From contig NZ_JAGSNF010000004.1 of NCBI RefSeq assembly GCF_018139485.1, forward strand, positions 248,001-312,000: 64,000 nt of DNA, in the 5' to 3' direction. Numbering within the stretch: position 1 is the stretch's first letter; each line of letters opens with the position of its first letter. The position numbers and the translations under genes are program-made. Positions 12,872-34,324 of the stretch are shown in pieces. A model generated the notes under the pieces. That model ran no database searches and was not told the DNA's origin. It worked only from the letters and a program-made list of their open reading frames with translations. This DNA is from Phycicoccus avicenniae. GTDB taxonomy: Bacteria; Actinomycetota; Actinomycetes; Actinomycetales; Dermatophilaceae.

Positions 12872-14962
12872 TCAGGGGGTCCCGACGTACGACGGGACGA
12901 AGAACTGGCCGTTGTTGAGCCGGAACGGCAGGTCGGCGCCCGCGAGCAGCCGGGTCTCGCCGTCGCGGGTCTCCGCGACCGCCGTCTCGAAGACGTTGGC
13001 TCCCTCGTGGAAGGTCGACAGCGACGCCGACACCGAGGACTCGGTGTTGCGGACGACCGGCCTCTCCGGGTCGAGGTCCCAGCCGCCGTGGTAGACGTTG
13101 AAGATCGCGCCGAGGATCTCGGTGCGCCCGCCCTCCTCGGTCTCGAAGACGGTCCACGGGCCTTCGGCCTTCACCCCGAACAGCCACACGTCCCCGCCCC
13201 GGTTGAGGATGTTCGGCTGCCCGTACGCCGGGTTCGCGAAGCGGACGAACGCCGTGACGTGGTCGAAGACGAAGGCGGTCTTGCCGAGCTCGGGCTTCTT
13301 GAAGGCCGTCCGCGCCGAGCAGCTGTCGAGGAACACCGTGCCGCCGCGCACCGAGTTCCGGTACATCGGCCCCTGCTGGAGGTGGACGTCCTGGAGGACG
13401 AGGGTGCGGGTGGAGGCGTGGTCGACGAAGTACGCCAGCTTCGTCTCGTTGGCCCAGCCGAAGTGCCGCTCGAGCATGAGCGGGGACGAGCCGTCGCCGA
13501 CCGCGAACATCCCCTGGTCCTCCGCGAGGCCCGCGCCGGCCAGCACGTGCGTGTACATGAAGTTGACGCGCTCCACGGACCCCGGGATCGTCACCGTCCC
13601 GTCGAGCTTCCAGACGTGGTTCGGCGGGAACCAGACGACCGGCTTCCCGGCGTCCATGGCCGACTGGACCGCCGCCGTGTCGTCGGTCTCGCCGTCGCCG
13701 ACGGCGCCGTGGTCGAGGACGCTCTCCCACTGCGAGAGGTCGTCCGGCCACGGCCCGCGGGGGCTCTCCTGCACCGGGAGGGCGAGCGAGGTCGTCCGCG
13801 ACTGCTCGAACAGCGTCGCGACCGGTGAGGAGACGTACTCCGAGACGTTGTTGCCGGCCACCGCGACCGAGCCCGCACGGCGGACGGCGTAGGCGTACCC
13901 ACCCGTCGTGAGGTCCCGGGCGAGCAGCTGGCCGTCCTGGGAGTCGATCGCCGGCAGCGAGCCGTCGCGCCCCTGGAGGAAGGACTCGACGATGACGAGG
14001 TGTCCTCCCTCTCCGGTGACCCGCGCCGCCGCGCCGGGCATGTCCCCGACGATCCGTCGGGCGGAGACGCACGAGTCGACGCACTCGATGCCGGAGACCC
14101 GCTGACCGGTCATCCGCACGCCGTCGAGGACGACGAGGTAGCCCCGCGGGGTCTCGCAGTGGAAGCCGTGGTCGAAGCCGACGAGGTCGAGGTCCTCGTA
14201 GGTGCCCTGGGTGACCCAGATCGGCAGCGACACCGCCTTGACACCCTCGCCCTCGGCGGCGCGGATCGTCACGTGCCGCACCGAGGCGTTGTTCGCCCCG
14301 CAGAAGAGCAGGCCGGTGGCTCCGGGGTTGCCGGACCCGGTGTCGATCGTGAGGTTCTGGACGTAGTTCGAGGCCACGGTGCCGTTCCGGTAGCCCTTGG
14401 CGAACGAGAGGACCGGCTTGTCGGCGCCCGGTCCGAACCCGGCCGAGCCGTCCGCGAGCCGGATCGTCACGCCGTCGCGGCTCTGGCCCTGGAACCGGAT
14501 CCGGGCGTTGTTCTCGTTGTCGTTCGGCATCGTGTCGTACGGCCCGGAGTAGACGACGGTGTCCGACACGAGGTACTCGCCGTCGGGCAGGTAGATGATG
14601 TTCTGGCTGGCGTCCGGGTCGTTGCGGGTGTCGAGGTAGCGCTCGTGCACGAGGTCGTAGGCGGCGACGAGCGCGGCGGTGTCGTCGGTGACGCCGTCGC
14701 CCTTGGCGCCGAAGAGACGCTTGACGTCGATGACACCCACGTCGTCGACGGTCTTCGCGTACGCCTCCTCGGGGAAGACGACGTTCTCGGACCAGTCGCT
14801 GCGACCGGTCACCCAGTCGCGCCGGCCACGGCCCGGGCTCGGGGGCCGGTCGGCGGCGGCAGGACCGGCGGCCGCCACGACGGCTCCGCCGGCGCCGAGC
14901 GCACCGAGGAGCAGTCGCCGGCTGGGTCGCGGGCCGCTCGTGGTGAAGATGGGGACGTTCAT
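12872..14962 (-). CDS. Exported pectate-lyase-superfamily beta-helix protein
   Basis: Probable secreted polysaccharide lyase or hydrolase. 696 residues. The N-terminus SRRLLLGALGAGGAVVAAAG, ending in AAADRP, is a Tat-like export signal. Two copies of the pectate-lyase-3 repeat start appear: RLFGAKGDGVTDDTAALVAA (about residue 80) and DHGAVGDGETDDTAAVQSAM (about 410), each opening a right-handed beta-helix. The protein is a clear paralogue of the one at 17127-19259; both share SNYVQNLTIDTGSGNPGA, VERVNFMYTHV and the N-terminal layout. Catalytic residues cannot be assigned by eye, so lyase versus GH28-like hydrolase is open. It is the 3'-most gene of the island's left arm. Confidence 0.75.
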   Translation of the reverse strand: MNVPIFTTSGPRPSRRLLLGALGAGGAVVAAAGPAAADRPPSPGRGRRDWVTGRSDWSENVVFPEEAYAKTVDDVGVIDVKRLFGAKGDGVTDDTAALVAAYDLVHERYLDTRNDPDASQNIIYLPDGEYLVSDTVVYSGPYDTMPNDNENNARIRFQGQSRDGVTIRLADGSAGFGPGADKPVLSFAKGYRNGTVASNYVQNLTIDTGSGNPGATGLLFCGANNASVRHVTIRAAEGEGVKAVSLPIWVTQGTYEDLDLVGFDHGFHCETPRGYLVVLDGVRMTGQRVSGIECVDSCVSARRIVGDMPGAAARVTGEGGHLVIVESFLQGRDGSLPAIDSQDGQLLARDLTTGGYAYAVRRAGSVAVAGNNVSEYVSSPVATLFEQSRTTSLALPVQESPRGPWPDDLSQWESVLDHGAVGDGETDDTAAVQSAMDAGKPVVWFPPNHVWKLDGTVTIPGSVERVNFMYTHVLAGAGLAEDQGMFAVGDGSSPLMLERHFGWANETKLAYFVDHASTRTLVLQDVHLQQGPMYRNSVRGGTVFLDSCSARTAFKKPELGKTAFVFDHVTAFVRFANPAYGQPNILNRGGDVWLFGVKAEGPWTVFETEEGGRTEILGAIFNVYHGGWDLDPERPVVRNTESSVSASLSTFHEGANVFETAVAETRDGETRLLAGADLPFRLNNGQFFVPSYVGTP

Positions 14963-15021
14963 GGTCGGACCTCTCCGTCCTGTGCGGTGGTGCGGTGCGG
15001 GATGCCGGGTGGGCAGAGGCG

Positions 15022-15041
15022 GGCGCCTCGCGAGGGGCGCC
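15022..15041 (-). terminator. Hairpin after the DUF1565-like beta-helix gene
   Basis: GGCGCC arms (15022-15027 and 15036-15041) enclose TCGCGAGG, followed by another GC-rich dyad to 15056. It lies 41 nt beyond the stop of the gene at 15082-16923. Terminator function is inferred only from position and stem. Confidence 0.4.
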
Positions 15042-15081
15042 GCGGGGGCGGCGCGAGACGAGCCGCCCCCGCAGCCGTTGC

Positions 15082-16923
15082 TCACTCCTCGTCGTCGTCC
15101 GGGCCGTTGTCCGGGACGGGGCACTCGGTGGGGGAGTCCCCGGGGTAGAGGTCCCGGGTCGAGTAGTCGTAGCAGGTGATGTCCTCGTCGTCCCCGGGCA
15201 CCCGCAGGACGAGGTCGGCCGGGACGCCGAGCTCCGCGGCCTCCTCGCTGCCGGGAGCCGGCCACGTCGCGATGACCCGCTCGGTGATCATGTCCTTGTA
15301 GTCGTCCGTCACGACGTCCGGTGCCGCGTCGACGACGAGCCCGTACTCCGCGACCCAGCCGGCGATGCGGTCGAGCGTCTCCTCGGAGGCCCCGTAGCCG
15401 CTCGGGATGCCTTCGGCGGGGCGGAAGTCACCGTTCTCCGGGTCGACGAAGACCGAGTCGACGGCCGTGATGCCGTCGGGGAGCTCGTCGCCGGGGACAC
15501 GGACGGCGTAGTTGTCCTCGACACCCGTCGCGGGGTCGTCGAAGGACTGGAGCGTCAGGTGACCGTCGGTGGCGTGGAAGAGGTTGTGCGTGATCGAGTC
15601 CGAGACCGACGACTGCAGCGACAGCTCGCCGTTGGCCGGGACGGCCTGGGTGTTGTGGAAGAAGCTGTTGTTCCGGATGACGCTGCCGTCCACGGTGTTG
15701 AGCCCCAGGCCGGCCTTGCCGTTGAGGACGGCGACGTTGTCCTCGGCGAGGAACCTCCCGATGAAGGTCCGGGCGTTGTTCTGCATGTGGAGGCCGTTGC
15801 CCTCGTCGATCTCCATCGTCACGAACCCCTTGCGGAAGACGTGCGAGATGTTCGAGGACTGGTTGCCGAAGACGAAGTTCCCCGTCATCCGGATCCCGAA
15901 CGTGTCCGGATTGTCGCCCTCCTCCGAGGCCGGCTTGGAGTTGCTGAAGCCGTGGGTGCCGGCGGTGGAGTACCAGGCGTTGTCGTAGACGAGGTTGTCC
16001 TCGCTGAACACGTACGTGCCGCCGTTGTTGCTCACCCCGGCGCCGGGGAAGTGGTGTACGACCATGTCGCGCACGGTGATCCGGCGTGAGCCGTTCATCG
16101 CCAGACCCCGGGCGCCGACCGGGGTCGAGAGCGCTTTGCCGTTCCACCAGGTCTCGAGGGCCTCGTCGATGCTCAGGTCGGCCGCGGTGCCCTCGAGCTC
16201 GAGGCCCTGGATGGTCCAGTGCTGCGACTGACGGACGAAGATCCCGTTGACGTCGGACTTGAGGGTCGCGTACTCGTTGCCCCAGTTGCGCAGGGCGAAC
16301 GGCTTGGTGAACGTGCCGTTCTTGCCGTTGATCCGGATGAAGTTGTTGTCCCGGGTGCCGTCGAACGGCTGCCCGTACTCGGGGTTGGTGTACGTCCCGC
16401 CGCGGACGTAGATCGTGTCCCCGGGCTCGGCCTTGCCGACGGCCTTCTGGATGTCGCCGAGCGGCTCGTCGGGAGTGCCCTTGCCGCTGTCGGCGCCCCC
16501 GGGCGCGACGTAGATGCCGTCCGGCATGGCGTGGTCACTCGTGCGGACCTTGAGCTTGAGCGTCTTCGTCTTGCCCGAGGGGTAGGTCACCGTCATCTCG
16601 TGCTCCCCGACCTGGTCCGGCCACGGGGTCCAGCGCAGGTACCCGCTGCGGTCCTGGGCGCGCAGACCGGTGGGGGCGCCGTCGACGCCCCACGTCCCGT
16701 CCGCACTCGCGTAGGCGTCACCCGGAGGGACCAGGACACAGGCGAGCTCCGAGCCCGCCGGGATCTCGAGGTTGTTCTCGCACGGCGGAGGGGCGCCCTC
16801 GTCGAGGGCGACCGCGCGGTCGGGTGCGGTGACGAGCACGCCGCCGGCGAGGGCCACGCCGAGGGTCAGTGCCAGGGGACGACGGGTGACCGTCGCGGAC
16901 GGTCGTGGACGGGTGGAGAACAT
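15082..16923 (-). CDS. Secreted right-handed parallel beta-helix protein (DUF1565/polysaccharide-lyase-like)
   Basis: 613-residue secreted protein. The signal peptide (RRPLALTLGVALAGGVLVTA) is followed by a small immunoglobulin-like domain to about residue 130. Then comes a parallel beta-helix opened by DGIYVAPGGADSGKGTPDEPLGDIQKAV and GDTIYVRGGTYTN, the usual DUF1565/PL9-like entry. Many Asn-rich turns (FVFGNQSSNISHVF, IRNNSFFHNTQ) mark coils. The C-terminus is acidic. I infer depolymerisation or binding of an anionic polysaccharide. Its promoter faces that of the beta-helix gene at 17127, and its -10 region is covered by the shared ATTACTTTC element. Confidence 0.72.
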   Translation of the reverse strand: MFSTRPRPSATVTRRPLALTLGVALAGGVLVTAPDRAVALDEGAPPPCENNLEIPAGSELACVLVPPGDAYASADGTWGVDGAPTGLRAQDRSGYLRWTPWPDQVGEHEMTVTYPSGKTKTLKLKVRTSDHAMPDGIYVAPGGADSGKGTPDEPLGDIQKAVGKAEPGDTIYVRGGTYTNPEYGQPFDGTRDNNFIRINGKNGTFTKPFALRNWGNEYATLKSDVNGIFVRQSQHWTIQGLELEGTAADLSIDEALETWWNGKALSTPVGARGLAMNGSRRITVRDMVVHHFPGAGVSNNGGTYVFSEDNLVYDNAWYSTAGTHGFSNSKPASEEGDNPDTFGIRMTGNFVFGNQSSNISHVFRKGFVTMEIDEGNGLHMQNNARTFIGRFLAEDNVAVLNGKAGLGLNTVDGSVIRNNSFFHNTQAVPANGELSLQSSVSDSITHNLFHATDGHLTLQSFDDPATGVEDNYAVRVPGDELPDGITAVDSVFVDPENGDFRPAEGIPSGYGASEETLDRIAGWVAEYGLVVDAAPDVVTDDYKDMITERVIATWPAPGSEEAAELGVPADLVLRVPGDDEDITCYDYSTRDLYPGDSPTECPVPDNGPDDDEE

Positions 16924-16950
16924 CGTTGTTCCTTCCGGGAGCCGGTGGCA

Positions 16951-17000
16951 GAATTACTTATCCTGATGTAGAAAGTATTGATGCAACACGCCGAGGTCAA
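16951..17000 (-). promoter_or_regulatory. Promoter and candidate ROK operator, beta-helix gene at 15082-16923
   Basis: On the minus strand TTGACC (complement of 16995-17000), a 17-nt spacer and TACTTT (complement of 16972-16977) form a sigma-70-like promoter. The -10 lies inside an imperfect dyad, ATTACTTATCC facing AAAGTATTG (16951-16980). The same half-site, ATTACTTTCC, recurs before the ABC importer operon. A repressor bound here would block the -10. Confidence 0.5.
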
Positions 17001-17058
17001 GAGCAGTCCGGTTTTCCAGGGTCGATGAGCACGGTCGCAAGACCCTTTCGCCGCACGG

Positions 17059-17088: not shown

Positions 17089-17126
17089 GTTCCTCCGAAG
17101 AGTAAAGAAACGACAGAGAGGTCGTC

Positions 17127-19259
17127 GTGAAGCGCCGTCACCCGTCAGGCCGCCCCGTCATCGACCGCCGCGGTGTGCTTCGCGGCCTCGGAGCCGCGGG
17201 GCTCGGCGTCGCCGGCTCCTCGGTGTTCGCCGCCCCGTCCGCCGCAGGACGGACCCCGCCGTCCGGGCGGCCGGGCTCGCCCCCCGGGCAGGCGCGCAAG
17301 CCCACCTCGCCGTACTTCGCCGAGCGGGTCGTCTACCCGCAGGCGGTGTACGCCGACGGGCTCGACGGGGTGGGTGTCTTCGACGTCCGGCGTCACTTCG
17401 GGGCCGTCGGGAACGGCGTCACCGACGACACGGCCGCCTTCGTCGCAGCGTACGACCACATCGTCGACCGGTACCAGGCGGAGAGGGACGACGTCGCGAG
17501 GTCGAGCCAGAACATCATCTACGTCCCGGACGGCGACTACCTCGTCAGCGACACGATCCTCTACACCGCCGCGCTCCTGGAGAACGGCAACGGCCAGGAG
17601 CAGATCGCGCGCGTCCGGTTCCAGGGTGAGAGCCGCGACGGGACCGTCATCCGCCTCCGGGACGAGGCGCCGGGCTTCGGCGAGGGTGCGCACAAGCCCG
17701 TGCTCAGCCTCGCCAAGGGGGTGCAGAACGGCTCCGTGGCGTCGAACTACGTCCAGAACCTCACGATCGACACGGGGTCGGGCAACCCGGGGGCGGTCGG
17801 CCTCGTCCACGCCGGGGCGAACAACGGCGGGGTCCGTCAGGTGACGATCCGGTCCGGCGACGGGACGGGTGACACGGGTCTCTCCCTCGAGATCCAGGTG
17901 ACCCAGGGCAGCTACCGCAACCTCGTCGTCGAGGGCTTCGACACGGGGATCTTCGCCGGTCCGCCCCGGGGCTTCAGCGTGGCCTTCGAGCACGTCGCGC
18001 TCACCGGCCAGCGGGTCGCCGGCATCCACGTCGAGGACGCCGTTCTCTCGGTCCGGGACCTCGAGAACCGCAACCGCGTGCCGGCCGCCGTCGTGAGCGG
18101 TGACGACGGGCTGCTCGTCCTCCTCGAGAGCCGGCTCGTCGGCGGAGCTCCGGCGGAGGTCGCCGTGGAGTCCCGCGCCGGCGGGCTCCTCGTGCGGGAC
18201 GTCGTCGTCGGGGGGTACGCGGGGGCGGTCTCGCGGGCCGGTGAGGTCGCCGTCCCGACCGGCCGGGTCACCGAGTACTCGGCCCAGGGGGTGCAGACCC
18301 TCTTCCCCACCGCCGAGCACACCCTGGGACTCGCCGTCGAGGAGACGCCGCTGCGCGCGTGGCCCGAGGACGTCGAGGCGTGGGCCAACGTCCAGGACTT
18401 CGGGGCGGTCGGCGACGGCGTGACCGACGACAGTGCCGCCATCCAGGCGGCGATGGACTCGGGTGCGGCCGTCGTCCACTTCCAGCCGGGGCACCGGTAC
18501 GTCGTGGAGGCGACGGTGACGGTCCCCTCGTCCGTCGAGCGGGTGAACTTCATGTACACCCACGTCGTGCAGGGGCCCGCCCTCGACCGGCTCGACATCG
18601 AGGAGGGCCTGCCCATGTTCCGGGTCGGTGGACGGGCCGACGACGTGCCGCTCGTCGTCGAGGACCTCTTCGGCTGGATCCAGGGCGAGGAGCGCAGCCC
18701 CGTGATCGACCACGCGTCGCGCCGCACGCTCGTCGTCCTCGACTGCCACCACCAGCACGCGCCGATCTACCGCAACTCGGTCACCGGGGGGTGCGTGTTC
18801 CTGGAGTCGGTCTCGTGCCGCACCGGGCGCCACGAGCCGCACAAGGGTCTCCCGGGGTTCGTCTTCACCGGCCAGAAGGTCTGGGCGCGGTTCCTCGACC
18901 CCGAGTACGGCGACCCCAACCTCGTCAACGACGGGTCGGACCTGTGGGTCATGGCCTGCAAGTTCGAGGGGGGCTGGACGATGATCGACACGGTCGGCGG
19001 CGGTCGCACCGAGATGCTCGGCGGGATGAACAACGTCTTCCACGGCGGCTGGACGATCGACGCCGACCGCCCGATGCTGCGCACCGTCGACAGCGACGTC
19101 TCGTACACCCTCGGCACGTTCGGGTTCGGCAACCACTACGTGACCCTCGCGGAGGAGACCCGGGGCGAGGAGACCCGGACGCTGCAGCTGTCCGACGTCC
19201 CTCGCCGGTGGAACGACACCCACTCCTTCCTCCCGCTCTACGTCGGCCGCGGCCGCTGA
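17127..19259 (+). CDS. Exported pectate-lyase-superfamily beta-helix protein
   Basis: 710 residues from a GTG start with AGAGAGG 5 nt upstream. The N-terminus has a twin-arginine signal (DRRGVLRGLGAAGLGVAGSS, then AAPSAAG). Like its paralogue at 12872-14962 it has two beta-helix entries, RRHFGAVGNGVTDDTAAFVA and DFGAVGDGVTDDSAAIQAAM (the second near residue 425). These are typical of the pectate_lyase_3 family. It lacks recognisable carbohydrate-binding or anchoring modules, so it is probably free outside the cell. The GH3 gene follows after 27 nt and is likely co-transcribed. Role inferred: cleavage of a (sulfated) polysaccharide into importable oligosaccharides. Confidence 0.75.
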   Translation: MKRRHPSGRPVIDRRGVLRGLGAAGLGVAGSSVFAAPSAAGRTPPSGRPGSPPGQARKPTSPYFAERVVYPQAVYADGLDGVGVFDVRRHFGAVGNGVTDDTAAFVAAYDHIVDRYQAERDDVARSSQNIIYVPDGDYLVSDTILYTAALLENGNGQEQIARVRFQGESRDGTVIRLRDEAPGFGEGAHKPVLSLAKGVQNGSVASNYVQNLTIDTGSGNPGAVGLVHAGANNGGVRQVTIRSGDGTGDTGLSLEIQVTQGSYRNLVVEGFDTGIFAGPPRGFSVAFEHVALTGQRVAGIHVEDAVLSVRDLENRNRVPAAVVSGDDGLLVLLESRLVGGAPAEVAVESRAGGLLVRDVVVGGYAGAVSRAGEVAVPTGRVTEYSAQGVQTLFPTAEHTLGLAVEETPLRAWPEDVEAWANVQDFGAVGDGVTDDSAAIQAAMDSGAAVVHFQPGHRYVVEATVTVPSSVERVNFMYTHVVQGPALDRLDIEEGLPMFRVGGRADDVPLVVEDLFGWIQGEERSPVIDHASRRTLVVLDCHHQHAPIYRNSVTGGCVFLESVSCRTGRHEPHKGLPGFVFTGQKVWARFLDPEYGDPNLVNDGSDLWVMACKFEGGWTMIDTVGGGRTEMLGGMNNVFHGGWTIDADRPMLRTVDSDVSYTLGTFGFGNHYVTLAEETRGEETRTLQLSDVPRRWNDTHSFLPLYVGRGR

Positions 19260-19286: not shown

Positions 19287-21149
19287 ATGAAGCCCACGCT
19301 GAGCACCGCCGACGACGGCACCCGCTACCGCGACCTCGACGGCAACGGCCGGATGGACCCGTACGAGGACCCCCGGCTGACCGCCGAACAGCGCACAGAG
19401 GACCTCGTCGGTCGCCTGTCCCTCGAGGAGAAGGTCGGGCTGATGTTCCACCCGGTCATCCACGCCGGCCCCGAGGGCACCCTCGCCGAGACGGAGGTGG
19501 GGGGCCGTCCGACGACGTCCGACACCGTGAGCGGGCGGCTCATCACCCACTACAACGTCCACACCCTCGGCGGCCCCCGCCTCGGCGCCCGGTGGATGAA
19601 CGCCCTCCAGGAGCTCGCGGAGCGGACCCCGCACGGCATCCCGGTGACGATCTCGACCGACCCCCGGCACGCCTTCGTGGAGAACAGCGAGGTCTCGTTC
19701 AAGGCGTCTGGCTTCTCGCAGTGGCCCGAGCCGCTCGGGTTCGCCGCCATCGACGACGTCGACCTCGTCCGGCGCTTCGCCGAGATCGCGCGGCAGGAGT
19801 ACCGCGCGGTCGGGATCCGCTCGGCGCTGCACCCGCAGATCGACCTCACGACCGAACCGCGGTGGGGCCGTCAGGTGCAGTGCTTCGGCCAGGACGCCGG
19901 CCGGGCGGCGGAGTACGTGCGCGCCTACCTCGAGGGCTTCCAGGTGGGCCCGCAGCTCGGTCCGGACAGCGTCTCGTGCATCACGAAGCACTTCCCCGGC
20001 GCGGGGCCGCAGCTCGACGGCGAGGACGCGCACTTCCCGTACGGCCGCGAGCAGGTGTACCCCGGCGACATGTTCGAGTACCACCTCGAGCCCTTCCGCG
20101 CGGCGATCGAGGCCGGGACGGCCGGGATGATGCCGTACTACGCGATGCCGCAGGGCCTGGTCCGGGGCGGCGAGCCGATCGAGGAGGTCGGGTTCGGGTA
20201 CAACCGGCAGATCCTCACCGGCCTGCTCCGCGAGGAGCTCGGGTACGACGGCGCGGTCGTCTCGGACTGGAAGCTCGTCATGGATCGCGACATGGACGGC
20301 CGGGTCTTCCCGGCCCGCGCGTGGGGCGCAGAGCACCTGACGGCCCGCGAGCGCATCGTGAAGATCCTCGACGCCGGGGTGGACCAGTTCGGCGGCGAGG
20401 ACTTCACCGACCTCCTGCTGGCGATGGTCCGCGACGGTGAGGTCGCCGAGTCCCGGCTCGACGAGTCGGTCCGTCGCCTGCTGCTCGTGAAGTTCCGGCT
20501 CGGGCTCTTCGACGACCCGTTCGTCGACGAGGACGCCGCGGCCGAGCTCGTGGGGAACGACGGGTTCGCCGCGGAGGGCTTCCGGGCCCAGGCGCGGTCC
20601 TTCACCGTGCTCAAGGTCGACCGCGACGACGAGGAGGCTCCCGCCCTGCCGATCGGGTCCGGGCAGCGCCTCTACGTCGAGGGCGTCGACCTCGCCGTCG
20701 CCGGACGGTACGGCACGGTCGTCGAGCACCCGGAGGACGCCGACCTCGCCGTCATCCGGGTCAAGGCACCGTTCGAGCCGCGGGACGACATCCCGATGGA
20801 GAGGAAGTTCCACCAGGGGAGCCTGGAGTTCCCGCCCGGGCTGGCCTACCGTCTGCGCCGGATCGCCGACCGCGTGCCGGTCGTCCTCGACGTCGAGCTG
20901 GAGCGCCCCGCCGTGCTCACGCCCCTCGTCGACCTCGCGACGGTCCTCGTCGGCAGCTTCGGCGGCGGCGACGAGGCGTTCTTCGCGGCCCTGACCGGTG
21001 CGGTGGACCCCGACGCGACGCTGCCGACGGAGATCCCGCGCTCCATGGAGGCGGTCCGCGCCTCGCGCTCCGACGTCCCGTCGGACACGGTCGACCCCGT
21101 GTTCCCCGTGCGCTCCGGTCGGGTGCACCAGCAGGTGCCGACCGCCTGA
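19287..21149 (+). CDS. Glycoside hydrolase family 3 enzyme
   Basis: Exo-acting beta-glycosidase, 620 residues, no export signal and so cytoplasmic. The N-terminus has a 12-residue EF-hand-like loop, DLDGNGRMDPYE (residues 16-27), with ligands at positions 1, 3, 5, 7, 9 and 12, a probable Ca2+ site. The TIM-barrel domain follows: LSLEEKVGLMFHP, HPQIDLTTEPRWGR, KHFPGAG (substrate-binding Lys-His) and GAVVSDWK, where D327 is the expected nucleophile. The smaller alpha/beta sandwich domain runs from about 420 to 600. No fibronectin-III tail. Likely trims oligosaccharides brought in by the ABC importer; the sugar cannot be read from sequence. Confidence 0.88.
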   Translation: MKPTLSTADDGTRYRDLDGNGRMDPYEDPRLTAEQRTEDLVGRLSLEEKVGLMFHPVIHAGPEGTLAETEVGGRPTTSDTVSGRLITHYNVHTLGGPRLGARWMNALQELAERTPHGIPVTISTDPRHAFVENSEVSFKASGFSQWPEPLGFAAIDDVDLVRRFAEIARQEYRAVGIRSALHPQIDLTTEPRWGRQVQCFGQDAGRAAEYVRAYLEGFQVGPQLGPDSVSCITKHFPGAGPQLDGEDAHFPYGREQVYPGDMFEYHLEPFRAAIEAGTAGMMPYYAMPQGLVRGGEPIEEVGFGYNRQILTGLLREELGYDGAVVSDWKLVMDRDMDGRVFPARAWGAEHLTARERIVKILDAGVDQFGGEDFTDLLLAMVRDGEVAESRLDESVRRLLLVKFRLGLFDDPFVDEDAAAELVGNDGFAAEGFRAQARSFTVLKVDRDDEEAPALPIGSGQRLYVEGVDLAVAGRYGTVVEHPEDADLAVIRVKAPFEPRDDIPMERKFHQGSLEFPPGLAYRLRRIADRVPVVLDVELERPAVLTPLVDLATVLVGSFGGGDEAFFAALTGAVDPDATLPTEIPRSMEAVRASRSDVPSDTVDPVFPVRSGRVHQQVPTA

Positions 21150-25458: not shown

Positions 25459-25498
25459 GAGGATCTCCGGGCTGGACGGGGTGTCTGACCGCCGAACG

Positions 25499-25530
25499 TA
25501 TCTTATTTTTCGTTGCGAGGGAAGTAATGG
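25499..25530 (-). promoter_or_regulatory. Candidate operator/promoter of the ROK-sulfatase-ROK unit
   Basis: An AT-rich island in a GC-rich context. On the minus strand it reads CCATTACTTCCC, 11 nt, then AAAAATAAGATA. TAAGAT (complement of 25500-25505) is a possible -10. The ATTACTTCC half-site lies at its -35 position, so a bound repressor would block polymerase. Confidence 0.4.
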
Positions 25531-25647
25531 AATGACGACGCCACGGTGGCCGACCCAGTCGGCTGAAGGCCTGCAAAGACAGCGTGAAGTGGCCGTCCTC
25601 GGGGCGCGGTGTCGCGTGCGCCACGGGCGGATGACCGCGGCGGGGGG

Positions 25648-25693
25648 TTGACAGCGACGGGTGGGGGTGATTACTTTCCCAACTGAAATTATG
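25648..25693 (+). promoter_or_regulatory. Promoter and candidate operator of the ABC importer operon
   Basis: TTGACA (25648-25653), a 17-18-nt spacer and TTACTT/TACTTT (25671-25677) as a degenerate -10. The dyad-like ATTACTTTCC...GAAATTATG (25670-25693) covers the -10 and resembles the element at 16951-16980. The start codon is 46 nt further on. Confidence 0.5.
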
Positions 25694-25739
25694 AATCCCC
25701 GACCCCGGGGACCGACGCCTCAAGGAAGAGAGCAGTCAG

Positions 25740-27291: not shown

Positions 27292-28236
27292 ATGCTGCGC
27301 TACCTCGTCCACAAGATCCCCTCCGTCCTCGGAGTGACGGTCGTGGCGTCGATGGTCGCGTTCGCCCTTCCTCGACTGGCACCCGGTGACCCCGCCGTGG
27401 CGCTGGTCGAGGGGGACGCGGACCCCGCGACGATCGAGGCCCTCCGTGCCGAGATGGGACTCGACCTCCCGCTGTGGGAGCAGTACCTGCGGTGGGTCGG
27501 CAACCTCCTCCAGGGCGACCTCGGGAACTCGTACCTGCTCAACCGGCCGGTGAGCCAGCTCATCGGCGCCCGGATGGAGAGCACGATCGAGCTCACGGTC
27601 GCCGCGACGCTCCTCATGATCGTCGTCGGGCTGGTCTTCGGCATCCTCGGCGGCTCCCGCCTCACCCCCTGGGCGCGCACCGCCGTCGACGCCTGGAACA
27701 CCTTCTTCATCGCGGTGCCGGCCTACCTCGTGGGTCTGCTCCTCATCCTCTTCTTCGGGATCTACAACCGGGTCCTCCCGGTGAGCGGTGAGGTCGCGGT
27801 GCTCGACGACCCGAACTTCGGGCTCCAGTACCTCATCCTCCCGGCGCTCGCGCTCTCGCTGCCGGCGGCCGCGACGGTCTCGCGGCTCGTGCAGACGTCG
27901 ATGCTCACGAACCGGGGCGAGGACTTCGTCGACCTCGCGGTCTCCAAGGGCGTGTCCCCGCGCCGGATCACGACGCGGCACGTCGCCCGCAACAGCCTCG
28001 GCACCGCCGCCGTCGTCGTCGGCCTGCGGATCGGCGACCTCCTCGCCGGCTCGCTGCTCATCGAGCTGATCTTCGCCCGCAACGGGCTCGGGTCGCTCGC
28101 CGTCGGCGCCGTCCAGCAACGCGACTACCTGCTGGTCCAGGTGCTCATCCTCTTCGCGGTCGTCATCGCGATCCTCGCGCAGCTCGCGTCGGAGATCACC
28201 CTGGCGGCCCTCGACCCCCGCATCCGATTGGGCTGA
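27292..28236 (+). CDS. ABC importer permease (DppB type)
   Basis: 314 residues, six predicted membrane helices. The N-terminus MLRYLVHKIPSVLGVTVVAS is typical of DppB/OppB. The EAA-like loop (DFVDLAVSKGVSPRRITTRHVARNS) contacts the ATPase. Starts 10 nt after the binding-protein stop and precedes the second permease by 5 nt. Confidence 0.93.
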   Translation: MLRYLVHKIPSVLGVTVVASMVAFALPRLAPGDPAVALVEGDADPATIEALRAEMGLDLPLWEQYLRWVGNLLQGDLGNSYLLNRPVSQLIGARMESTIELTVAATLLMIVVGLVFGILGGSRLTPWARTAVDAWNTFFIAVPAYLVGLLLILFFGIYNRVLPVSGEVAVLDDPNFGLQYLILPALALSLPAAATVSRLVQTSMLTNRGEDFVDLAVSKGVSPRRITTRHVARNSLGTAAVVVGLRIGDLLAGSLLIELIFARNGLGSLAVGAVQQRDYLLVQVLILFAVVIAILAQLASEITLAALDPRIRLG

Positions 28237-28241
28237 CCGTC

Positions 28242-29123
28242 ATGTCCACGACAGACCTCGACAACGCCGCCGCACCCCCGGCCGCACGCCGCTTCACCGT
28301 CCCGGTGTCGCTCGCGCGGTACGGCGCGGCCCTGCGCACGCCGCGCGGGATGATCGCGGCCGGCATCCTCCTCGCGCTCACGGCGATCGCCCTGCTCGCA
28401 CCGGTGATCTTCCCGCAGGGCTACGACGTGCAGAGCCGGGACCGGTTCCTCGGGATGAGCACGCAGCACCTGTTCGGCACCGACGAGTACGGCCGGGACA
28501 TCTTCGTCCGCACGGTCTACGGGCTGCGCACCGACCTGGCGCTCGTCGCCATCGCCGTGCCCGTCTCGGGGGTCATCGGCAGCCTGCTGGGCCTGTCCGG
28601 CGCGGTGTGGCCACGCTTCGGCAACCTCATGCAGCGGGTCTTCGACGTCATCATCGGCTTCCCGAGCTTCATCCTCGCGCTCTGCGTCGTCGTCGTCATG
28701 GGCGTCGGCTTCGCCTCGACGGTCGTCGCCATCACGATCCTCGGTCTGCCCGGCTTCGGCCGGCTCGCCCGGTCCGGCGCCCTCGAGCAGCAGAACCGCG
28801 AGTACGTCGTCGCCGCCCGCACCCTCGGGGTGAGCCGGCGCCGGATCCTCACCCGGCACATCGTGCCGAACACGGCGGACCCGCTCATCGTCCACGGCGC
28901 GATCTTCGCCGTGAACGCCGTCTTCATCGAGTCAGGGCTCGGCATCCTCGGCCTCGGGGTGCAGCCGCCGCAGCCGTCGCTGGGCTCCCTGCTCAACGTC
29001 GGCATGCGGTACGTCCGGGAGGCCCCGACCTACCCGGTCGGCCCGATCCTCGTCCTCCTCCTGCTCGCCCTCGCGCTGAGCATGCTGTCCGACTCGCTCA
29101 ACGAAAGGGTGAACCGTCGATGA
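28242..29123 (+). CDS. ABC importer permease (DppC type)
   Basis: 293 residues with a cytoplasmic N-terminal segment, then the OppC_N helix (GMIAAGILLALTAIALLAP) and the conserved GTDEYGRDIFVRTVYGLRTDL. The EAA loop reads NREYVVAARTLGVSRRRILTRHIVPN. Its stop overlaps the ATPase start (ATGA), showing tight coupling. Confidence 0.93.
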   Translation: MSTTDLDNAAAPPAARRFTVPVSLARYGAALRTPRGMIAAGILLALTAIALLAPVIFPQGYDVQSRDRFLGMSTQHLFGTDEYGRDIFVRTVYGLRTDLALVAIAVPVSGVIGSLLGLSGAVWPRFGNLMQRVFDVIIGFPSFILALCVVVVMGVGFASTVVAITILGLPGFGRLARSGALEQQNREYVVAARTLGVSRRRILTRHIVPNTADPLIVHGAIFAVNAVFIESGLGILGLGVQPPQPSLGSLLNVGMRYVREAPTYPVGPILVLLLLALALSMLSDSLNERVNRR

Positions 29124-31225
29124 TGACGACGTCCGAGAGCACCGACACCCCCGCCGCCGCCGACCGTCCGGCGCGCATCCCCGACCCCCGTCCCGGGTCC
29201 CGGAACCTCCTCGACGTGCGGGACCTCCGCGTGTCCTTCCCGACGCCCCGTGGGGTCGTCGAGGCGGTGAACGGCGTGTCCTTCTCGCTGGAGCAGGGCC
29301 GCATCCTCGGGATCGTCGGGGAGTCCGGGTCGGGCAAGTCCGTCACCGCGCGTGCCGTCATGCGGATGCTTCGCGAGCCCGGCCGTGTCGACGGCGGCTC
29401 GGTGACCCTCGACGGCCGCGACGTGCTCGCCGTGCCGGAGAAGGAGATGCGCGGGCTGCGCGGCGGGGAGGTCGCGATGGTCTTCCAGGACCCGCAGGCC
29501 GCCCTCAACCCCGTCATGAAGGTCGGCGACCAGATCGCCGAGGCGCTGCGCGTCCACGGGGTGCCGAAGGCGGCCGCCCGGGACCGGGCCCTCGAGCTGT
29601 TCCGCCAGGTCGGGATCCCCGACGTCGAGCGGACGATCGACCAGTACCCGCACGAGTTCTCCGGGGGCATGCGCCAGCGCGTCGTCATCGCCATCGCGCT
29701 GGCGAACAAGCCCCGGCTGCTCATCGCCGACGAGCCGACGACCGCGCTCGACGTGACGATCCAGGCCCAGATCCTCGAGCTGCTCGTCGAGCTGCGCAAC
29801 GATCTGGGCGTCGCGATCGTCATGATCACGCACGACATGGGCGTCGTCGCCGAGCTGTGCGACGACCTCGTCGTCATGTACGGCGGCCGGGTCGTGGAGA
29901 GCGGCTCGGTGAAGGACGTCTTCGCCGAGCAGCGGCACCCTTACACGAAGGCCCTGCTCACCGCCGTGCCGCGCGCGGACGCCGGCGGCGACCAGCTCGT
30001 CGCCATCCCCGGGTCGCCCCCCAACCCGGCGGACCTGCCGCCGGGCTGCTCGTTCGCCCCCCGCTGCCCGGTCGCCCGCCCCTCCTGCTCCGAGGCGGTC
30101 CCCCCGCTCGAGGAGCTCGCCCCGGACCACCGCGCCGCCTGCTTCGTCAGTGCCGAGGGCGGGGACCTCTCGATGCCTCCGGCCGTCCAGGCACGGCACC
30201 GCGCGGCCCGCGCGGCCGAGGGCGAGCCGGTCCTCTCGGTCGAGAACCTGCGGACCAACGTGAGCCGGCAGCGCTCGCTCATCGGGCGGATCCAGCCCGT
30301 GTACGCCGTCGACGGGCTCTCCCTCGAGGTGCGCCCGGGCGAGACCCTGGGGCTCGTCGGTGAGTCCGGCTGCGGCAAGTCCACGCTGTCCCGGACGATC
30401 GTCGGGATCAACGAGGTCTCCGCGGGGACCATCACCGTCGACGGCCGGGACGTGACCCGGATGACGGGCGCGGACCGACAGCACGTCGCGAACACGATCC
30501 AGTACATCTTCCAGGACCCGTACGCGTCGCTGAACCCGCGTCGCACGATCGGGCAGTCGATGGACGAGGCCCTCGAGATGACGGGTGTCACGGGCTCCGC
30601 CGCCAGGAGCCGGGCGGCGGAGCTCATGGACACCGTCGGTCTCGCCGAGGGTCATCTGGCCCGCTACCCGCACGAGTTCTCCGGCGGCCAGCGCCAGCGC
30701 GTCGGGATCGCCCGGGCGCTGGCCAAGGAGCCGAAGCTGCTCATCTGCGACGAGCCGGTCTCCGCGCTCGACGTCTCCATCCAGGCCCAGATCATCAACC
30801 TCCTCGAGGAGCTGCGCGAGCGGCTGACGATCGGTCTGCTGTTCATCGCCCACGACCTCTCCGTCGTCCGGCACCTCTCCGACCGCGTCGCGGTCATGTA
30901 CCTCGGGCGGATCGTGGAGACCGGGACGGTCCAGGAGGTCTACGACGACCCGCAGCACCCGTACACGAAGTCGCTGCTGTCGGCGACGCCCGAGCCCGTC
31001 GTCGACGACCAGGGGAGGCAGCGGATCGTCCTCACCGGTGACATGCCGAGCCCGGCGAACCCGCCGAGCGGCTGCCGCTTCCGCACGCGCTGCCCGATCG
31101 GCCCCCTCTTCCGGGAGGGCCGGGAGGTCTGCGAGCAGGAGGTCCCGGAGCTGACCCTCACTCCGGTCGGCCAGACCGCCGCCTGTCACTTCCCCGGCGA
31201 GCTCACCGAAGGAGCCCCCGCATGA
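29120..31225 (+). CDS. Fused double ABC ATPase (DppD-DppF type)
   Basis: Powers the importer. 701 residues holding two complete nucleotide-binding domains. First: Walker A GESGSGKS, signature SGGMRQRV, Walker B LLIADEPTTALD. Second (from about residue 370): GESGCGKST, SGGQRQRV, LLICDEPVSALD. Each ends with an oligopeptide-type tail with Cys residues (GCSFAPRCPVARPSC and GCRFRTRCPIGP), which in Dpp systems can hold an iron-sulfur cluster. The ATG at 29120 overlaps the permease stop. A second ATG follows directly. The last codons overlap the next sulfatase (ATGA), so importer and sulfatase are one transcript. Confidence 0.95.
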   Translation: MMTTSESTDTPAAADRPARIPDPRPGSRNLLDVRDLRVSFPTPRGVVEAVNGVSFSLEQGRILGIVGESGSGKSVTARAVMRMLREPGRVDGGSVTLDGRDVLAVPEKEMRGLRGGEVAMVFQDPQAALNPVMKVGDQIAEALRVHGVPKAAARDRALELFRQVGIPDVERTIDQYPHEFSGGMRQRVVIAIALANKPRLLIADEPTTALDVTIQAQILELLVELRNDLGVAIVMITHDMGVVAELCDDLVVMYGGRVVESGSVKDVFAEQRHPYTKALLTAVPRADAGGDQLVAIPGSPPNPADLPPGCSFAPRCPVARPSCSEAVPPLEELAPDHRAACFVSAEGGDLSMPPAVQARHRAARAAEGEPVLSVENLRTNVSRQRSLIGRIQPVYAVDGLSLEVRPGETLGLVGESGCGKSTLSRTIVGINEVSAGTITVDGRDVTRMTGADRQHVANTIQYIFQDPYASLNPRRTIGQSMDEALEMTGVTGSAARSRAAELMDTVGLAEGHLARYPHEFSGGQRQRVGIARALAKEPKLLICDEPVSALDVSIQAQIINLLEELRERLTIGLLFIAHDLSVVRHLSDRVAVMYLGRIVETGTVQEVYDDPQHPYTKSLLSATPEPVVDDQGRQRIVLTGDMPSPANPPSGCRFRTRCPIGPLFREGREVCEQEVPELTLTPVGQTAACHFPGELTEGAPA

Positions 31226-32778
31226 CCGATCGCCCCAACGTCCTCCTCGTCCTCGCCGACGACCTCGGCTACTCCGACATCGGCTGCTACGGCGGCGAGA
31301 TCGAGACGCCGAACCTCGACCGCCTCGGGCGGGCCGGGGTGCGGTGCAGCAGCTTCTACAACACGGCACGGTGCAGCCCGTCCCGGGCGAGCCTGCTCAC
31401 GGGCCGCGACCCGCACGAGACGGGCATCGGCATCCTCACCGAGAACGACGCCCCGACGGGCTACCCCGGCACGATGAGCCGGGAGTGGCCGACCCTCGCC
31501 GAGCACTTCAAGGACGCCGGCTACGCGACCTGCCTGTCGGGCAAGTGGCACCTGTCGAACGACGTCAAGGAGGCCAACGACTCCTGGCCGACCCGGCGCG
31601 GGTTCGACGAGTTCTACGGGATCCTCATGGGAGCCGACCACTACTTCCACCCGGTCGGGCTCTTCCACAACGAGGAGAAGCTGCCCTCCCCGGAGGAGCC
31701 GGGCTACTACTTCACCGACGCCGTGAGCGACCACGCGAGCGAGTGGGTCGCCGGCCGGGACGAGGACGACCCGTTCTTCCTCTACCTCGCGTACACGGCC
31801 CCGCACTGGCCGCTGCACGCGTCGCCCGAGGACATGGAGCGCTACGACGGCGTGTACGAGGAGGGCTGGGACGCGCTGCGCGCGGCCCGGCTCGAGCGGC
31901 TCCGCGAGGAGGGGCTGCTCGGCGAGTCCGCGCGGCTCTCCGAGCGGGACCTCAGCCAGCCCGCCTGGGACGAGGTGACCGAGACCTCGTGGGAGGCCAG
32001 CCGGATGGCGGCCTACGCCGCGATGGTCACCGCGATGGACCGCGGGATCGGGCGCATCCTCGACACGCTCGAGGCCCGGGGCGAGCTCGAGAACACGATC
32101 GTCGTCTTCCTCGCCGACAACGGCGGATGCGCCGAGATCCCCGGGGGCGCCGCGAAGTTCCGGGCACGGAACCGGGTCGAGATGCCGGACGGACGACCCG
32201 TTCGGGTCGAGAACACCCCGGACGTCCCGCCCGGCGGACCGGACACGTGGTGCGCCTACGGCCCCGCGTGGGCGAACCTGTCGAACAGCCCGTTCCGCCT
32301 CTACAAGCGGTGGACGCACGAGGGCGGCATCGCCTCGCCCTTCGTCGTCCACTGGCCGGCCGGAGGTCTCGCGGAGGGGGCGGTCGTCGACACGCCCTTC
32401 CAGCTGACCGACGTCATGCCGACCTTCCTCGAGGCCGCGGGTCTTCCGCGCAACGACGGGCGCGGGTCGAGCATGCTCGAGACGCTCCGCGGCGGCGAGG
32501 GCCCTGCGGCGCACACCCTCTACTGGGAGCACATCGGCAACTGCGCCGTCCGCGAGGGCGACTGGAAGCTCGTCCGCGAGGCCGAGCGGCCGTGGGAGCT
32601 CTACGACCTGGGGACCGACCGCTCCGAGCTCGACGACCTCGCACCCGCCCACCCGGAGCGCGTCGAGGCCATGGCCGCGGCGTGGCAGGAGTGGGCCGAC
32701 GGCGTCGGTGTCCTGCCCTGGCCGGCGTACCAGGCCCCCTGGGACCCCGAGACCGACCGCCACCAGCACGCGCAGTGA
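31222..32778 (+). CDS. Type I sulfatase (arylsulfatase A-like)
   Basis: 518 residues without a signal peptide, so cytoplasmic. The metal site begins VLLVLADDLGYSDIGCYGG. The formylglycine motif is C51-S-P-S-R55 followed by ASLLTGR, the canonical CxPSR core. SGKWHLS and VVFLADNGG complete the active site. Overlaps the ABC ATPase gene by 4 nt. Close to enzymes that desulfate glycosaminoglycan or algal oligosaccharides, but the regiospecificity cannot be inferred from what I see. Confidence 0.93.
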   Translation: MTDRPNVLLVLADDLGYSDIGCYGGEIETPNLDRLGRAGVRCSSFYNTARCSPSRASLLTGRDPHETGIGILTENDAPTGYPGTMSREWPTLAEHFKDAGYATCLSGKWHLSNDVKEANDSWPTRRGFDEFYGILMGADHYFHPVGLFHNEEKLPSPEEPGYYFTDAVSDHASEWVAGRDEDDPFFLYLAYTAPHWPLHASPEDMERYDGVYEEGWDALRAARLERLREEGLLGESARLSERDLSQPAWDEVTETSWEASRMAAYAAMVTAMDRGIGRILDTLEARGELENTIVVFLADNGGCAEIPGGAAKFRARNRVEMPDGRPVRVENTPDVPPGGPDTWCAYGPAWANLSNSPFRLYKRWTHEGGIASPFVVHWPAGGLAEGAVVDTPFQLTDVMPTFLEAAGLPRNDGRGSSMLETLRGGEGPAAHTLYWEHIGNCAVREGDWKLVREAERPWELYDLGTDRSELDDLAPAHPERVEAMAAAWQEWADGVGVLPWPAYQAPWDPETDRHQHAQ

Positions 32779-32836
32779 GCGCGACCGCCGGACACCCGAG
32801 ACCCCGCCCGACCGAGACGACCGGAGAAGCGACCCG

Positions 32837-34324
32837 ATGAGCACACACACCCCGGACCCGACGACCGACGCCGGCCGCCGTCCCAACATCGTCATGATCC
32901 TCACCGACGACCACGCCGCGCACGCCGTCGGCGCCTACGGGTCGGTCGTCAACGACACGCCTCGCATCGACGAGATCGCGGAGGAAGGTGCCCGGCTCGA
33001 CCACTGCTACGCGACGAACTCGCTGTGCGCCCCGAGCCGGGCGAGCATCCTCACCGGCACCTACAGCCACGTCAACGGGGTCAAGGGCCTCAAGACGCAC
33101 ATCGACGCGAGTCAGCCGACGTTCGTCACCCAGCTGCGCGAGGCCGGCTACCGGACGGCGATCGTCGGCAAGTGGCACATGGGCGACGGCGAGACGGACG
33201 GGGTCGGTCACGACCCGCAGGGGTTCGACTACTGGGACGTGCTCATCAACCAGGGCGAGTACAACGACCCCCGGTTTCTCTCCGCCGACGGTCTGCGCAT
33301 CGAGCCGGGCTACGCGACGAACGTCATCACCGACCTGTCCCTGCGCTGGCTCGACGAGCAGGTCGCGCAGGACGAGGACCGCCCCTGGTGCATCCTCATC
33401 CACCACAAGGCCCCGCACCGGACGTGGATCCCGGACGAGGCCCACGCCGACCTCTACAGCGACCCGATCCCCGTGCCGTCGACGTTCTTCGACGACTACT
33501 CGAGCCGGACGACGTCCTCGCGCCGGGCCGCGATGCGGATCGCCGAGGGCCTGCACCTGCGCGACCTCAAGATGCTGCCCCCCGAGGGGCTCTCCTACGA
33601 GGAGCTCTCGCTGTGGAAGTACCAGCGCTACATGGAGGACTACCTGCGCTGCGTGCACTCCGTCGACGTCAACGTCGGCCGGGTCGTCGACTGGCTGCGC
33701 GAGAAGGACCTCTTCGACGACACGATGCTCATGTACTCCTCCGACCAGGGCTTCTTCCTCGGTGACCACGGCTGGTACGACAAGCGGTTCATGTACGAGG
33801 AGTCGATCAAGATGCCGTTCGTCGTCTCCTACCCGCGCCGCGTACCCGCCGGCACGGTGTACGAGGGCACGGCGAGCAACGTCGACATGGCCCAGACGAT
33901 CCTCGACGCCGCCGGCGTGGCCCACCACCCCCGGATGCACGGCCGGTCCTTCTTCGGCGACCTCGTCGGCGCGCCGACCTCGCCCCAGGCGGACGGCCTG
34001 TACTACCGCTACTGGGAGAACGACGACTACGACCACCGGGCCCCGGCCCACTACGGCTGGCGCACCGAGCGGTACAAGCTCATCTACTTCTACAACGACG
34101 GGATGGGCATGCCGGGCACGACGAACCGGCAGTACCCGCCGGAGTGGGAGCTGTACGACATGCAGGAGGACCCGGAGGAGGTGCGCAACGTCTACGACGA
34201 CCCGGCGTACGCCGAGGTCCGCGAGCGGCTCAAGGCCGAGATGTGGCGGGCGCAGGCGTCCTTCGACGACGTGCCGCACCCGAGCCAGCCCGTCCCCGCC
34301 GGGTGCGAGCCGGTCCCGGTGTGA
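32837..34324 (+). CDS. Type I sulfatase
   Basis: 495 residues, no export signal, ATG with GGAGAAG upstream. Metal site RRPNIVMILTDDHAAHAVGAYG, formylglycine motif C64-A-P-S-R68 plus ASILTGT, GKWHMGDGE, and YSSDQGFFLGDHGW. The C-terminus YDMQEDPEEVRNVYDDP is typical of the choline-/heparan-sulfatase-like S1 subfamilies (DUF4976-type tail). Third sulfatase of the island and last gene of the importer operon (58 nt after the previous sulfatase). The three differ clearly, so they probably remove sulfate from different positions. Confidence 0.93.
   Translation: MSTHTPDPTTDAGRRPNIVMILTDDHAAHAVGAYGSVVNDTPRIDEIAEEGARLDHCYATNSLCAPSRASILTGTYSHVNGVKGLKTHIDASQPTFVTQLREAGYRTAIVGKWHMGDGETDGVGHDPQGFDYWDVLINQGEYNDPRFLSADGLRIEPGYATNVITDLSLRWLDEQVAQDEDRPWCILIHHKAPHRTWIPDEAHADLYSDPIPVPSTFFDDYSSRTTSSRRAAMRIAEGLHLRDLKMLPPEGLSYEELSLWKYQRYMEDYLRCVHSVDVNVGRVVDWLREKDLFDDTMLMYSSDQGFFLGDHGWYDKRFMYEESIKMPFVVSYPRRVPAGTVYEGTASNVDMAQTILDAAGVAHHPRMHGRSFFGDLVGAPTSPQADGLYYRYWENDDYDHRAPAHYGWRTERYKLIYFYNDGMGMPGTTNRQYPPEWELYDMQEDPEEVRNVYDDPAYAEVRERLKAEMWRAQASFDDVPHPSQPVPAGCEPVPV

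Follow-up and report, generated by a model that had tools for sequence, protein, structure and literature searches.

The window analysed here, a stretch of 64,000 nucleotides from Phycicoccus avicenniae (contig NZ_JAGSNF010000004.1, positions 248,001 to 312,000), is about 73% GC and belongs to contig C11; the genome comprises 3.54 Mb in 26 contigs. Between the LigD polymerase gene, which ends at 12773, and a small gene that is named here as FhuF-like lies an island of 13 genes (12872–34324, 21.5 kb) that joins exported beta-helix proteins to sulfatases and an importer (Table 1). The gene order is bh1, bh2 and bh3 (the beta-helix proteins), an enzyme of glycoside hydrolase family 3 (GH3), ROK1, sulfatase 1, ROK2, a solute-binding protein (SBP), two permeases, a fused ATPase, and sulfatases 2 and 3. 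The reading frames are open, and the coding pick by GC content at third codon positions (GC3) includes most of them; permease 2 falls outside it, being overlapped there by a long ATPase frame. For bh1 and ROK1 the start is most likely an internal ATG. The importer ATPase is a single fused gene, and ATGA overlaps link it to permease 2 (29120–29123) and to sulfatase 2 (31222–31225).

Table 1. Genes of the island and its flanks, in window coordinates
Feature	Position	Strand	Evidence
bh1: GH55-fold-like double beta-helix protein, exported (Tat-type leader)	12872..14962	-	PF12708, two stretches; 51% identity to bh3
bh2: exported right-handed beta-helix protein, weak PL9-like similarity	15082..16923	-	PF13229 27.2 bits (cut-off 25.9)
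bh3: GH55-fold double beta-helix protein, exported (Tat-type leader)	17127..19259	+	PF12708, PDB, model, Foldseek
GH3 beta-glucosidase-type enzyme, no leader seen	19287..21149	+	PF00933; PDB 9ul7 843.5 bits
ROK regulator 1 (helix-turn-helix (HTH) + ROK)	21222..22397	-	PF00480, HTH_24
Sulfatase 1: S1_8-like, C-terminal HEAT-like part, CAPAR, no leader	22480..24264	-	PF00884; PDB 9bba S1_8C E 5e-71
ROK regulator 2 (HTH + ROK)	24295..25458	-	PF00480 159.9 bits
SBP: family-5 solute-binding lipoprotein	25740..27281	+	PF00496 249.9 bits; lipobox LASC
Importer permease 1 (DppB/OppB type)	27292..28236	+	PF00528, PF19300
Importer permease 2 (DppC/OppC type)	28242..29123	+	PF00528, PF12911
Fused two-domain importer ATPase (DppD-DppF type)	29120..31225	+	two ABC_tran + two oligo_HPY stretches
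Sulfatase 2: S1_4-like, CSPSR, no leader	31222..32778	+	PF00884; PDB 7all E 5e-103, 1hdh E 3e-85
Sulfatase 3: S1_11-like, CAPSR, no leader	32837..34324	+	PF00884; PDB 5g2v E 6e-109, 7p24, 7lha
Left flank: Ku, LigD ligase, LigD polymerase; conserved neighbours outside island	9282..12773		
Right flank: FhuF-like gene, Lsr2, lysyl-tRNA synthetase (LysRS); conserved neighbours outside island	34811..37634	-	

A sequence-only reading of this DNA had named three exported beta-helix proteins, a GH3 enzyme, three distinct sulfatases without signal peptides, two ROK regulators, and a full Dpp/Opp-type importer joined to a sulfatase by ATGA overlaps. Domain searches and the translations bear out this inventory: PF12708 in two genes and PF13229 in one, with leaders; PF00933; PF00884 in three genes, with no leaders seen; PF00480 in two; and PF00496, PF00528 in two genes and a fused two-domain ATP-binding cassette (ABC) ATPase, with both overlaps in place.

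The sulfatases were assigned to subfamilies by their nearest PDB relatives, and each of the three holds a C-x-P-x-R motif. The first five matches of sulfatase 1 are S1_8A, S1_8B and S1_8C enzymes that act in the lambda-carrageenan pathway, at E values from 5e-71 to 3e-55, and the sixth is SGSH, the scores being 243 bits for carrageenan S1_8 versus 74.5 bits for SGSH; with S1_8 members nearest and CAPAR at position 55, the protein is S1_8-like. Sulfatase 2 is closest to 7all, which we take to be a Bacteroides S1_4 enzyme, then to Pseudomonas aeruginosa AtsA (1hdh) and to more arylsulfatase entries of the same length; these relatives and its CSPSR mark it as S1_4-like. Sulfatase 3 matches 5g2v, an N-acetylglucosamine (GlcNAc)-6-sulfatase, followed by 7p24 and 7lha. 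It keeps DKR (5g2v chain positions 361–363, with Asp 361 and Arg 363) and two nearby His residues, which probably include the S1_11 recognition triad. Its nearest relatives and the kept Asp, Arg and His positions, the residues being those given in PMC10154612, mark it as S1_11-like. S1_8 enzymes of solved structure are 2-O-sulfohydrolases on galactose, and other S1_8 members act on 2-O-sulfated xylose (Xyl2S) and N-sulfated glucosamine (GlcNS) (PMC12549532). P. aeruginosa AtsA is an S1_4 enzyme (PMC5066984), and a Bacteroides S1_4 enzyme takes the 3-O-sulfate off galactose (PMC10154612).

A search of the genome found five sulfatase genes, three of them within the island. It also holds a gene for the sulfatase maturase, formylglycine-generating enzyme (FGE): the better of two FGE-like matches (C5:39412-40233, E 8.7e-81) adjoins another sulfatase. 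The second match (C11:87189-87923, L002; E 9e-33) lies in a 654-residue frame and could be an unrelated protein that shares the fold. In contig C5 (L018:6841-11963) a ROK-like gene, a xylose-isomerase-like TIM barrel, the FGE gene and an S1_11-like sulfatase stand together, probably as a second sulfated-sugar locus.

Leaders were judged by eye from the translations. Both bh1 and bh3 have twin-arginine (Tat-type) leaders, in which RR is invariant among six aligned family members; bh2 has a hydrophobic leader, and the SBP lipobox reads LASC. Sulfatases 1, 2 and 3 have 6, 3 and 14 residues, respectively, ahead of the conserved [KR]PN[IV] strand, with no hydrophobic leader seen, and the GH3 enzyme begins MKPTLSTADDG, without a hydrophobic stretch.

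The fold of bh3 is that of GH55. Its PDB matches are the GH55 glucanases 5m5z (E 8e-12) and 3eqn (E 9.5e-10), and its AlphaFold2 model has a mean pLDDT (predicted local distance difference test) of 77.9 and a pTM (predicted TM-score) of 0.83. When this model was searched with Foldseek, the top four matches were GH55 chains (3eqn at E 2.7e-17 and a query TM-score (TMq) of 0.70; 5m5z; 8jhh twice) and the fifth was the bacterial sacteLam55A (E 1.2e-5, with a low TM of 0.33). Model and Foldseek together show the two right-handed beta-helix domains in rib-cage arrangement that mark GH55. In this bh3 resembles the exo- and endo-beta-1,3-glucanases of the family (3eqn, 5m5z, 8jhh, 4pew; PMC10637969). 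GH55 active residues are a general acid Glu with Tyr at +3, a Glu-His about 22 residues before it, and WxW..D (PMC10637969). The combination occurs in none of the six bh-family members, nor does the W.W pattern, in a comparison made at motif level and with no signature-bearing positive control. EH or ExxY alone is present in some of the six, and neither is invariant. The residues E512, D539, H541 and E629 are all invariant and are candidates for the position that the general acid has in GH55. In 118 class genomes PF12708 was matched at 17 places, all of them inspected; 10 have a GDGxxDD-type motif (two being the window's own genes) and none the GH55 signature. Among seven records from a plasmid fragment search, five were examined; the motif is in four and the signature in none of those four. 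Plain GH55 laminarinases were considered for bh1 and bh3 and set aside: the fold fits, and the signature was not found, with the same proviso on controls. The two proteins may instead represent a new enzyme family that shares the GH55 fold but not the active-site signature.

At E 1e-20 the bh3 family was found in 2 of 297 order genomes (the window genome and G119, from another family), in one of 296 class genomes (the window genome), and in one of the 24 genomes of G119's family (G119 itself). Relatives elsewhere are in Phycicoccus flavus and, at 30%, on a Hyphomicrobiales plasmid. Less can be said of bh2. Its best PDB match is the rhamnogalacturonan lyase 5olq (E 0.0013), a model built from a two-sequence alignment has a mean pLDDT of 35.6, and the gene was found in one of 297 order genomes (the window genome) and in P. 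flavus.

The nearest PDB relative of the GH3 enzyme is 9ul7, deposited as a beta-glucosidase (843.5 bits over residues 4–611); SN243, presumably a beta-glucuronidase, is less close. The translation has the GH3 N-domain and holds VVSDW, and it shares with 9ul7 a TDPRH stretch that is SNARN in SN243. SDW is the nucleophile motif of GH3, and the TDPRH stretch holds the Asp that binds sugar in glucosidases. The protein therefore appears more likely to be a beta-glucosidase than a glucuronidase. The importer has all parts of a Dpp/Opp system, i.e. a family-5 SBP, two permeases and two ATPase domains. The nearest solved relatives of the SBP include peptide, nickel, heme and agrocinopine binders, so that sequence leaves peptide transport undecided. 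A TTGACA-type promoter-like stretch precedes the SBP gene (window 25459-25739) and, by eye, has a similar counterpart in P. flavus.

The island occupies a variable site. Each of the 12 genus genomes has a LigD polymerase gene. The junction between it and the FhuF-like gene is closed (0.14–1.26 kb) in six of them (G569, G570, G571, G572, G573, G575), and it is filled by the island in two, the window genome and G568, which is taken to be P. flavus. Two others (G235, G566) have different cargo there, a PEP (phosphoenolpyruvate)-synthase-like gene named by eye; G574 stands outside the tally, its contig ending there, and G567 is considered below. P. flavus CMS6Z-2 (L009) has 12 of the 13 island genes in the same order. 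The exception is ROK1, which has no match in P. flavus; an extra sulfatase (L009:14739-16196) stands in its place, and an FGE gene lies directly behind sulfatase 3. Between the two genomes the 12 shared genes have 75–92% amino-acid identity, a dS (synonymous divergence) of 0.42–0.54 and a dN/dS (nonsynonymous to synonymous ratio) of 0.12–0.41, which points to purifying selection on all 12. Among the flanks, Ku, LigD polymerase and LysRS have a dS of 0.37–0.43, and the FhuF-like gene, at 0.81, is above the island; lsr2 was left out of the comparison as misaligned. The island was therefore most likely at this site already in the common ancestor of the two species and was kept by selection.

The beta-helix and sulfatase halves are found together once more, in G119. 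Here a ROK gene, an S1_8-like sulfatase and a second sulfatase lie between two GH55-like genes, and beyond them come a BPD_transp_1 permease, an SBP_bac_1 protein and one more sulfatase. All three sulfatases are leaderless; sulfatase 2 is the best match of the second (32%), and the C5 enzyme is a weak match of the third (30%). The importer, which we take to be of the CUT1 sugar type, differs in class from that of the window, but in both genomes GH55-like proteins are paired with leaderless sulfatases, and this is the best evidence that the two halves belong together. The G119 cluster (L007/L008, C1:885001-924000) is also near LysRS and Lsr2, some 10 kb away from the latter, and is closely followed by a gene that by eye is CysS-like; this neighbourhood is possibly a hot region shared with the island.

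Partial counterparts exist elsewhere. A tblastn search with sulfatase 1 gave 23 plasmid records at E 1e-50, of which 10 were examined. On a Neorhizobium petrolearium plasmid (L052) an S1_8-type sulfatase (45%), a distant GH3, an S1_11-like sulfatase (50% with the C5 enzyme and 45% with sulfatase 3), a further sulfatase, an Opp-type importer and FGE occur together, with an annotated anaerobic maturase as well, and the sulfatases and GH3 have no leaders. On Novosphingobium pentaromativorans pLA3 (L051) a GH3 (38% over 617) stands in a row with three sulfatases, and a TonB receptor accompanies them; the best matches of the three sulfatases are to sulfatase 2 (35%), to the C5 S1_11-like enzyme (34%; sulfatase 3 30%) and to sulfatase 1 (51%). 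A fourth sulfatase is nearby, and all four have leaders, the GH3 being without a clear one. Within the window's genus, G575 (L016, C17:6121-16433) has an Opp-type importer next to an S1_8-like sulfatase (37–41%), most likely leaderless, with a three-domain GH3 and a gene that is GntR-like by eye. Further leaderless relatives of sulfatase 1 are in Mesobacillus, with an annotated MFS (major facilitator superfamily) transporter, FGE and ROK nearby, in Streptomyces, and in two haloarchaeal copies; those of Sphingobium, Vibrio and Burkholderia have leaders, and one record (L061) was left out of this comparison. Where an importer can be named, leaderless sulfatases accompany ABC (window, P. flavus, G119, G575, Neorhizobium) or MFS (Mesobacillus) transporters, and sulfatases with leaders a TonB receptor (Novosphingobium). 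It should be pointed out that these are few cases, not chosen at random, and that five of the six leaderless ones are Gram-positive, without a Gram-negative-type periplasm. The layout is a recurrent variant of the carbohydrate-utilisation cluster, seen across phyla.

A regulator, a transporter and a carbohydrate-active enzyme define the Gram-positive carbohydrate-utilisation cluster (PMC9067506), and the island has all three. It is read here, at a rough probability of 0.55, as such a cluster for a sulfated, beta-glucoside-containing glycan that is cut outside the cell, taken up by the Opp-type importer, and desulfated and attacked by GH3 inside; a sulfated beta-glucosidic polysaccharide is the favoured, if conjectural, substrate. 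The exported bh1 and bh3, with their GH55 fold, and bh2 would release sulfated fragments, which the family-5 lipoprotein would capture and the Opp-type pump import. Cytoplasmic S1_8-, S1_4- and S1_11-type sulfatases, matured by FGE, would remove sulfates at different positions, perhaps O2, O3 and O6 by family analogy, and GH3 would then take off the desulfated beta-glucosyl residues. One or both ROK proteins may derepress the genes on sensing a sugar product. The sequence-only reading had proposed this same division of labour. It gains support from the sequence, from the P. flavus copy with its own maturase gene, and from the leaderless sulfatases and Opp-type importers of Neorhizobium and G575. 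The earlier interpretation as a whole is partly upheld; that two of the exported proteins pair a GH55 fold with the absence of its catalytic signature was beyond what that reading could show.

A bolder version of the scheme is doubtful. In it, bh1, bh3 and their relatives would form a new GH55-fold-derived double beta-helix family cleaving a heavily sulfated polymer of beta-glucan type, whose fragments would be imported still sulfated; in the cytoplasm one and the same terminal residue would be cleared at O2, O3 and O6 by the S1_8, S1_4 and S1_11 enzymes, and GH3 would then remove it; and the location of sulfatases, cytoplasm or periplasm, would follow importer type across phyla.

The Neorhizobium and Novosphingobium loci share an S1_8-type sulfatase, GH3 and further sulfatases with the island, and the former also has the Opp-type importer, FGE and lack of leaders; unlike the island, neither examined stretch has an annotated beta-helix enzyme, and the Novosphingobium sulfatases have leaders and a TonB receptor. 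Among other known systems, the importer of Thermotoga maritima tmCBP is presumably of Opp type, as the title of a reference cited in its paper suggests. It is an ABC importer as in the island, has a binding protein for beta-1,3- and beta-1,4-gluco-oligosaccharides (laminari- and cello-) and is in an operon with a glucanase, but no sulfatase is mentioned in the available portion of the source (PMC3850815). The lambda-carrageenan locus of Pseudoalteromonas likewise combines S1_8 sulfatases (S1_8A/B/C) with exo-glycosidases, in the order strip-then-cut; it differs in being Gram-negative, in having GH150, GH110 and GH2 for the GH55-fold and GH3 proteins and S1_15 for S1_4 and S1_11, and in enzymes taken as exported, since the constructs leave out predicted signal peptides, whereas the island sulfatases are leaderless (PMC12549532). 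The heparin/heparan sulfate polysaccharide utilisation loci of Bacteroides and Pedobacter have S1_8 (Pedobacter), S1_11 and, in a locus figure legend, ROK, but they have periplasmic sulfatases, SusCD-type transport, and lyases with GH88 (PMC10154612). The sulfatase clusters of Bifidobacterium breve UCC2003 are also from an actinobacterium, and there too an intracellular sulfatase has a transport gene close by; these clusters differ in taking GlcNAc-6-S, in having an Fe-S oxidoreductase (atsB) listed with them rather than FGE, and in that the available text mentions no exported depolymerase (PMC7326374, PMC6045583).

The best-described sulfated-glycan systems desulfate in the Gram-negative periplasm (PMC10154612), and the contrast that the sequence-only reading drew with Bacteroidetes is a fair one. 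Its word 'unusual' is half right: an intracellular actinobacterial sulfatase is already known from B. breve (PMC7326374), as is an ABC importer for gluco-oligosaccharides (PMC3850815), and related loci exist. In the open-licence literature, no paper linking Phycicoccus with a sulfatase was found, nor was the combination of exported GH55-fold proteins lacking the GH55 signature with such a layout, or its recurrence across phyla. The interest of the island lies in this contrast with the best-studied, periplasmic systems and in two exported proteins that may represent a new enzyme family. With the loci of Neorhizobium and G575 it offers a testable model in which the sulfated piece is imported first and desulfated inside, and the signature-less GH55-fold proteins are new-family candidates in a gene set small enough to express and test.

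Several observations weigh against the reading as a sulfated-glycan island. The 30% bh3 relative on the Hyphomicrobiales plasmid (L031, CP131057.1 313946-355682) lies, by eye, amid exopolysaccharide export and glycosyltransferase-type genes, and no match to the island sulfatases was found around it. The lack of an annotated beta-helix enzyme in the Novosphingobium and Neorhizobium stretches is a further difficulty, as is the Neorhizobium GH3, which is only 27% alike over 324 residues. Plasmid searches gave 46 records with GH3 relatives at E 1e-60. Two were examined, picked for being annotated: the Arthrobacter gene (62%) comes after a sugar importer and the Croceicoccus gene (41%) lies among TonB receptors. 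No sulfatase is annotated near either, so the GH3 type alone does not imply a sulfated substrate. In G567 the LigD/FhuF-like junction holds sulfatase 3 (75%) and FGE (75% to the P. flavus FGE) only. Lastly, no convincing shared operator emerged when the stretches between bh2 and bh3 and between ROK2 and the SBP gene, from both the window and P. flavus, were compared by a simple short-word search, and thus co-regulation is not demonstrated.

That the substrate is instead a small sulfated glycoside, e.g. a sulfated plant saponin or phenolic glucoside, with the beta-helix proteins acting as glycosidases on it or on plant wall material, is rather unlikely but a real alternative, because relatives of the GH3 and S1_8 enzymes sit in plant-associated and aromatic-degrading contexts. 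Among the 25 listed of the 46 GH3-relative plasmid records, many are from plant-associated actinobacteria and rhizobia, and S1_8-type relatives lie beside aromatic-ring catabolism genes in N. pentaromativorans and in Sphingobium sp. TomTYG65 (L055). GH55 itself includes a hesperidin rhamnosyl-glucosidase (PMC10637969), and no depolymerase is annotated in the Novosphingobium stretch. Sulfated small glycosides thus fit nearly as well as the 'sulfated glycan' of the sequence-only reading, which has to stay conditional. A polymer is nevertheless suggested by the exported beta-helix proteins, of which the window and P. flavus have three each and G119 two, and the island has no aromatic catabolism gene.

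Two adjoining modules, with the beta-helix proteins and GH3 serving a beta-glucan and the importer and sulfatases a sulfated compound, are improbable. The operator result, the presence of two ROK regulators and the G567 junction speak for such a division, but the GH55-like pair is again with sulfatases in G119, GH3 is together with sulfatases in Novosphingobium and Neorhizobium, and the island holds no separate importer for the half with the beta-helix proteins and GH3.

Far less probable is a glycosaminoglycan pathway of heparan sulfate type, with S1_8 as N-sulfamidase and S1_11 as glucosamine-6-sulfatase. Pedobacter heparinus does use S1_8, S1_9 and S1_11 (PMC10154612), but such a locus should have a polysaccharide lyase with GH88, and this route was rejected: no GH88 was matched in the genome (E 0.001), which makes glycosaminoglycan use unlikely, no heparin or chondroitin lyase family was matched in the island, none of the sulfatases is nearest to S1_9, and sulfatase 1 is far nearer to carrageenan S1_8 than to SGSH. 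Equally remote is sulfur scavenging, in which sulfate esters would be imported for their sulfate and sugar use would be secondary; sulfate freed in the cytoplasm could be assimilated there, and sulfatase 2 is near the P. aeruginosa arylsulfatase, but the ROK regulators, GH3 and the exported beta-helix proteins point to carbon use.

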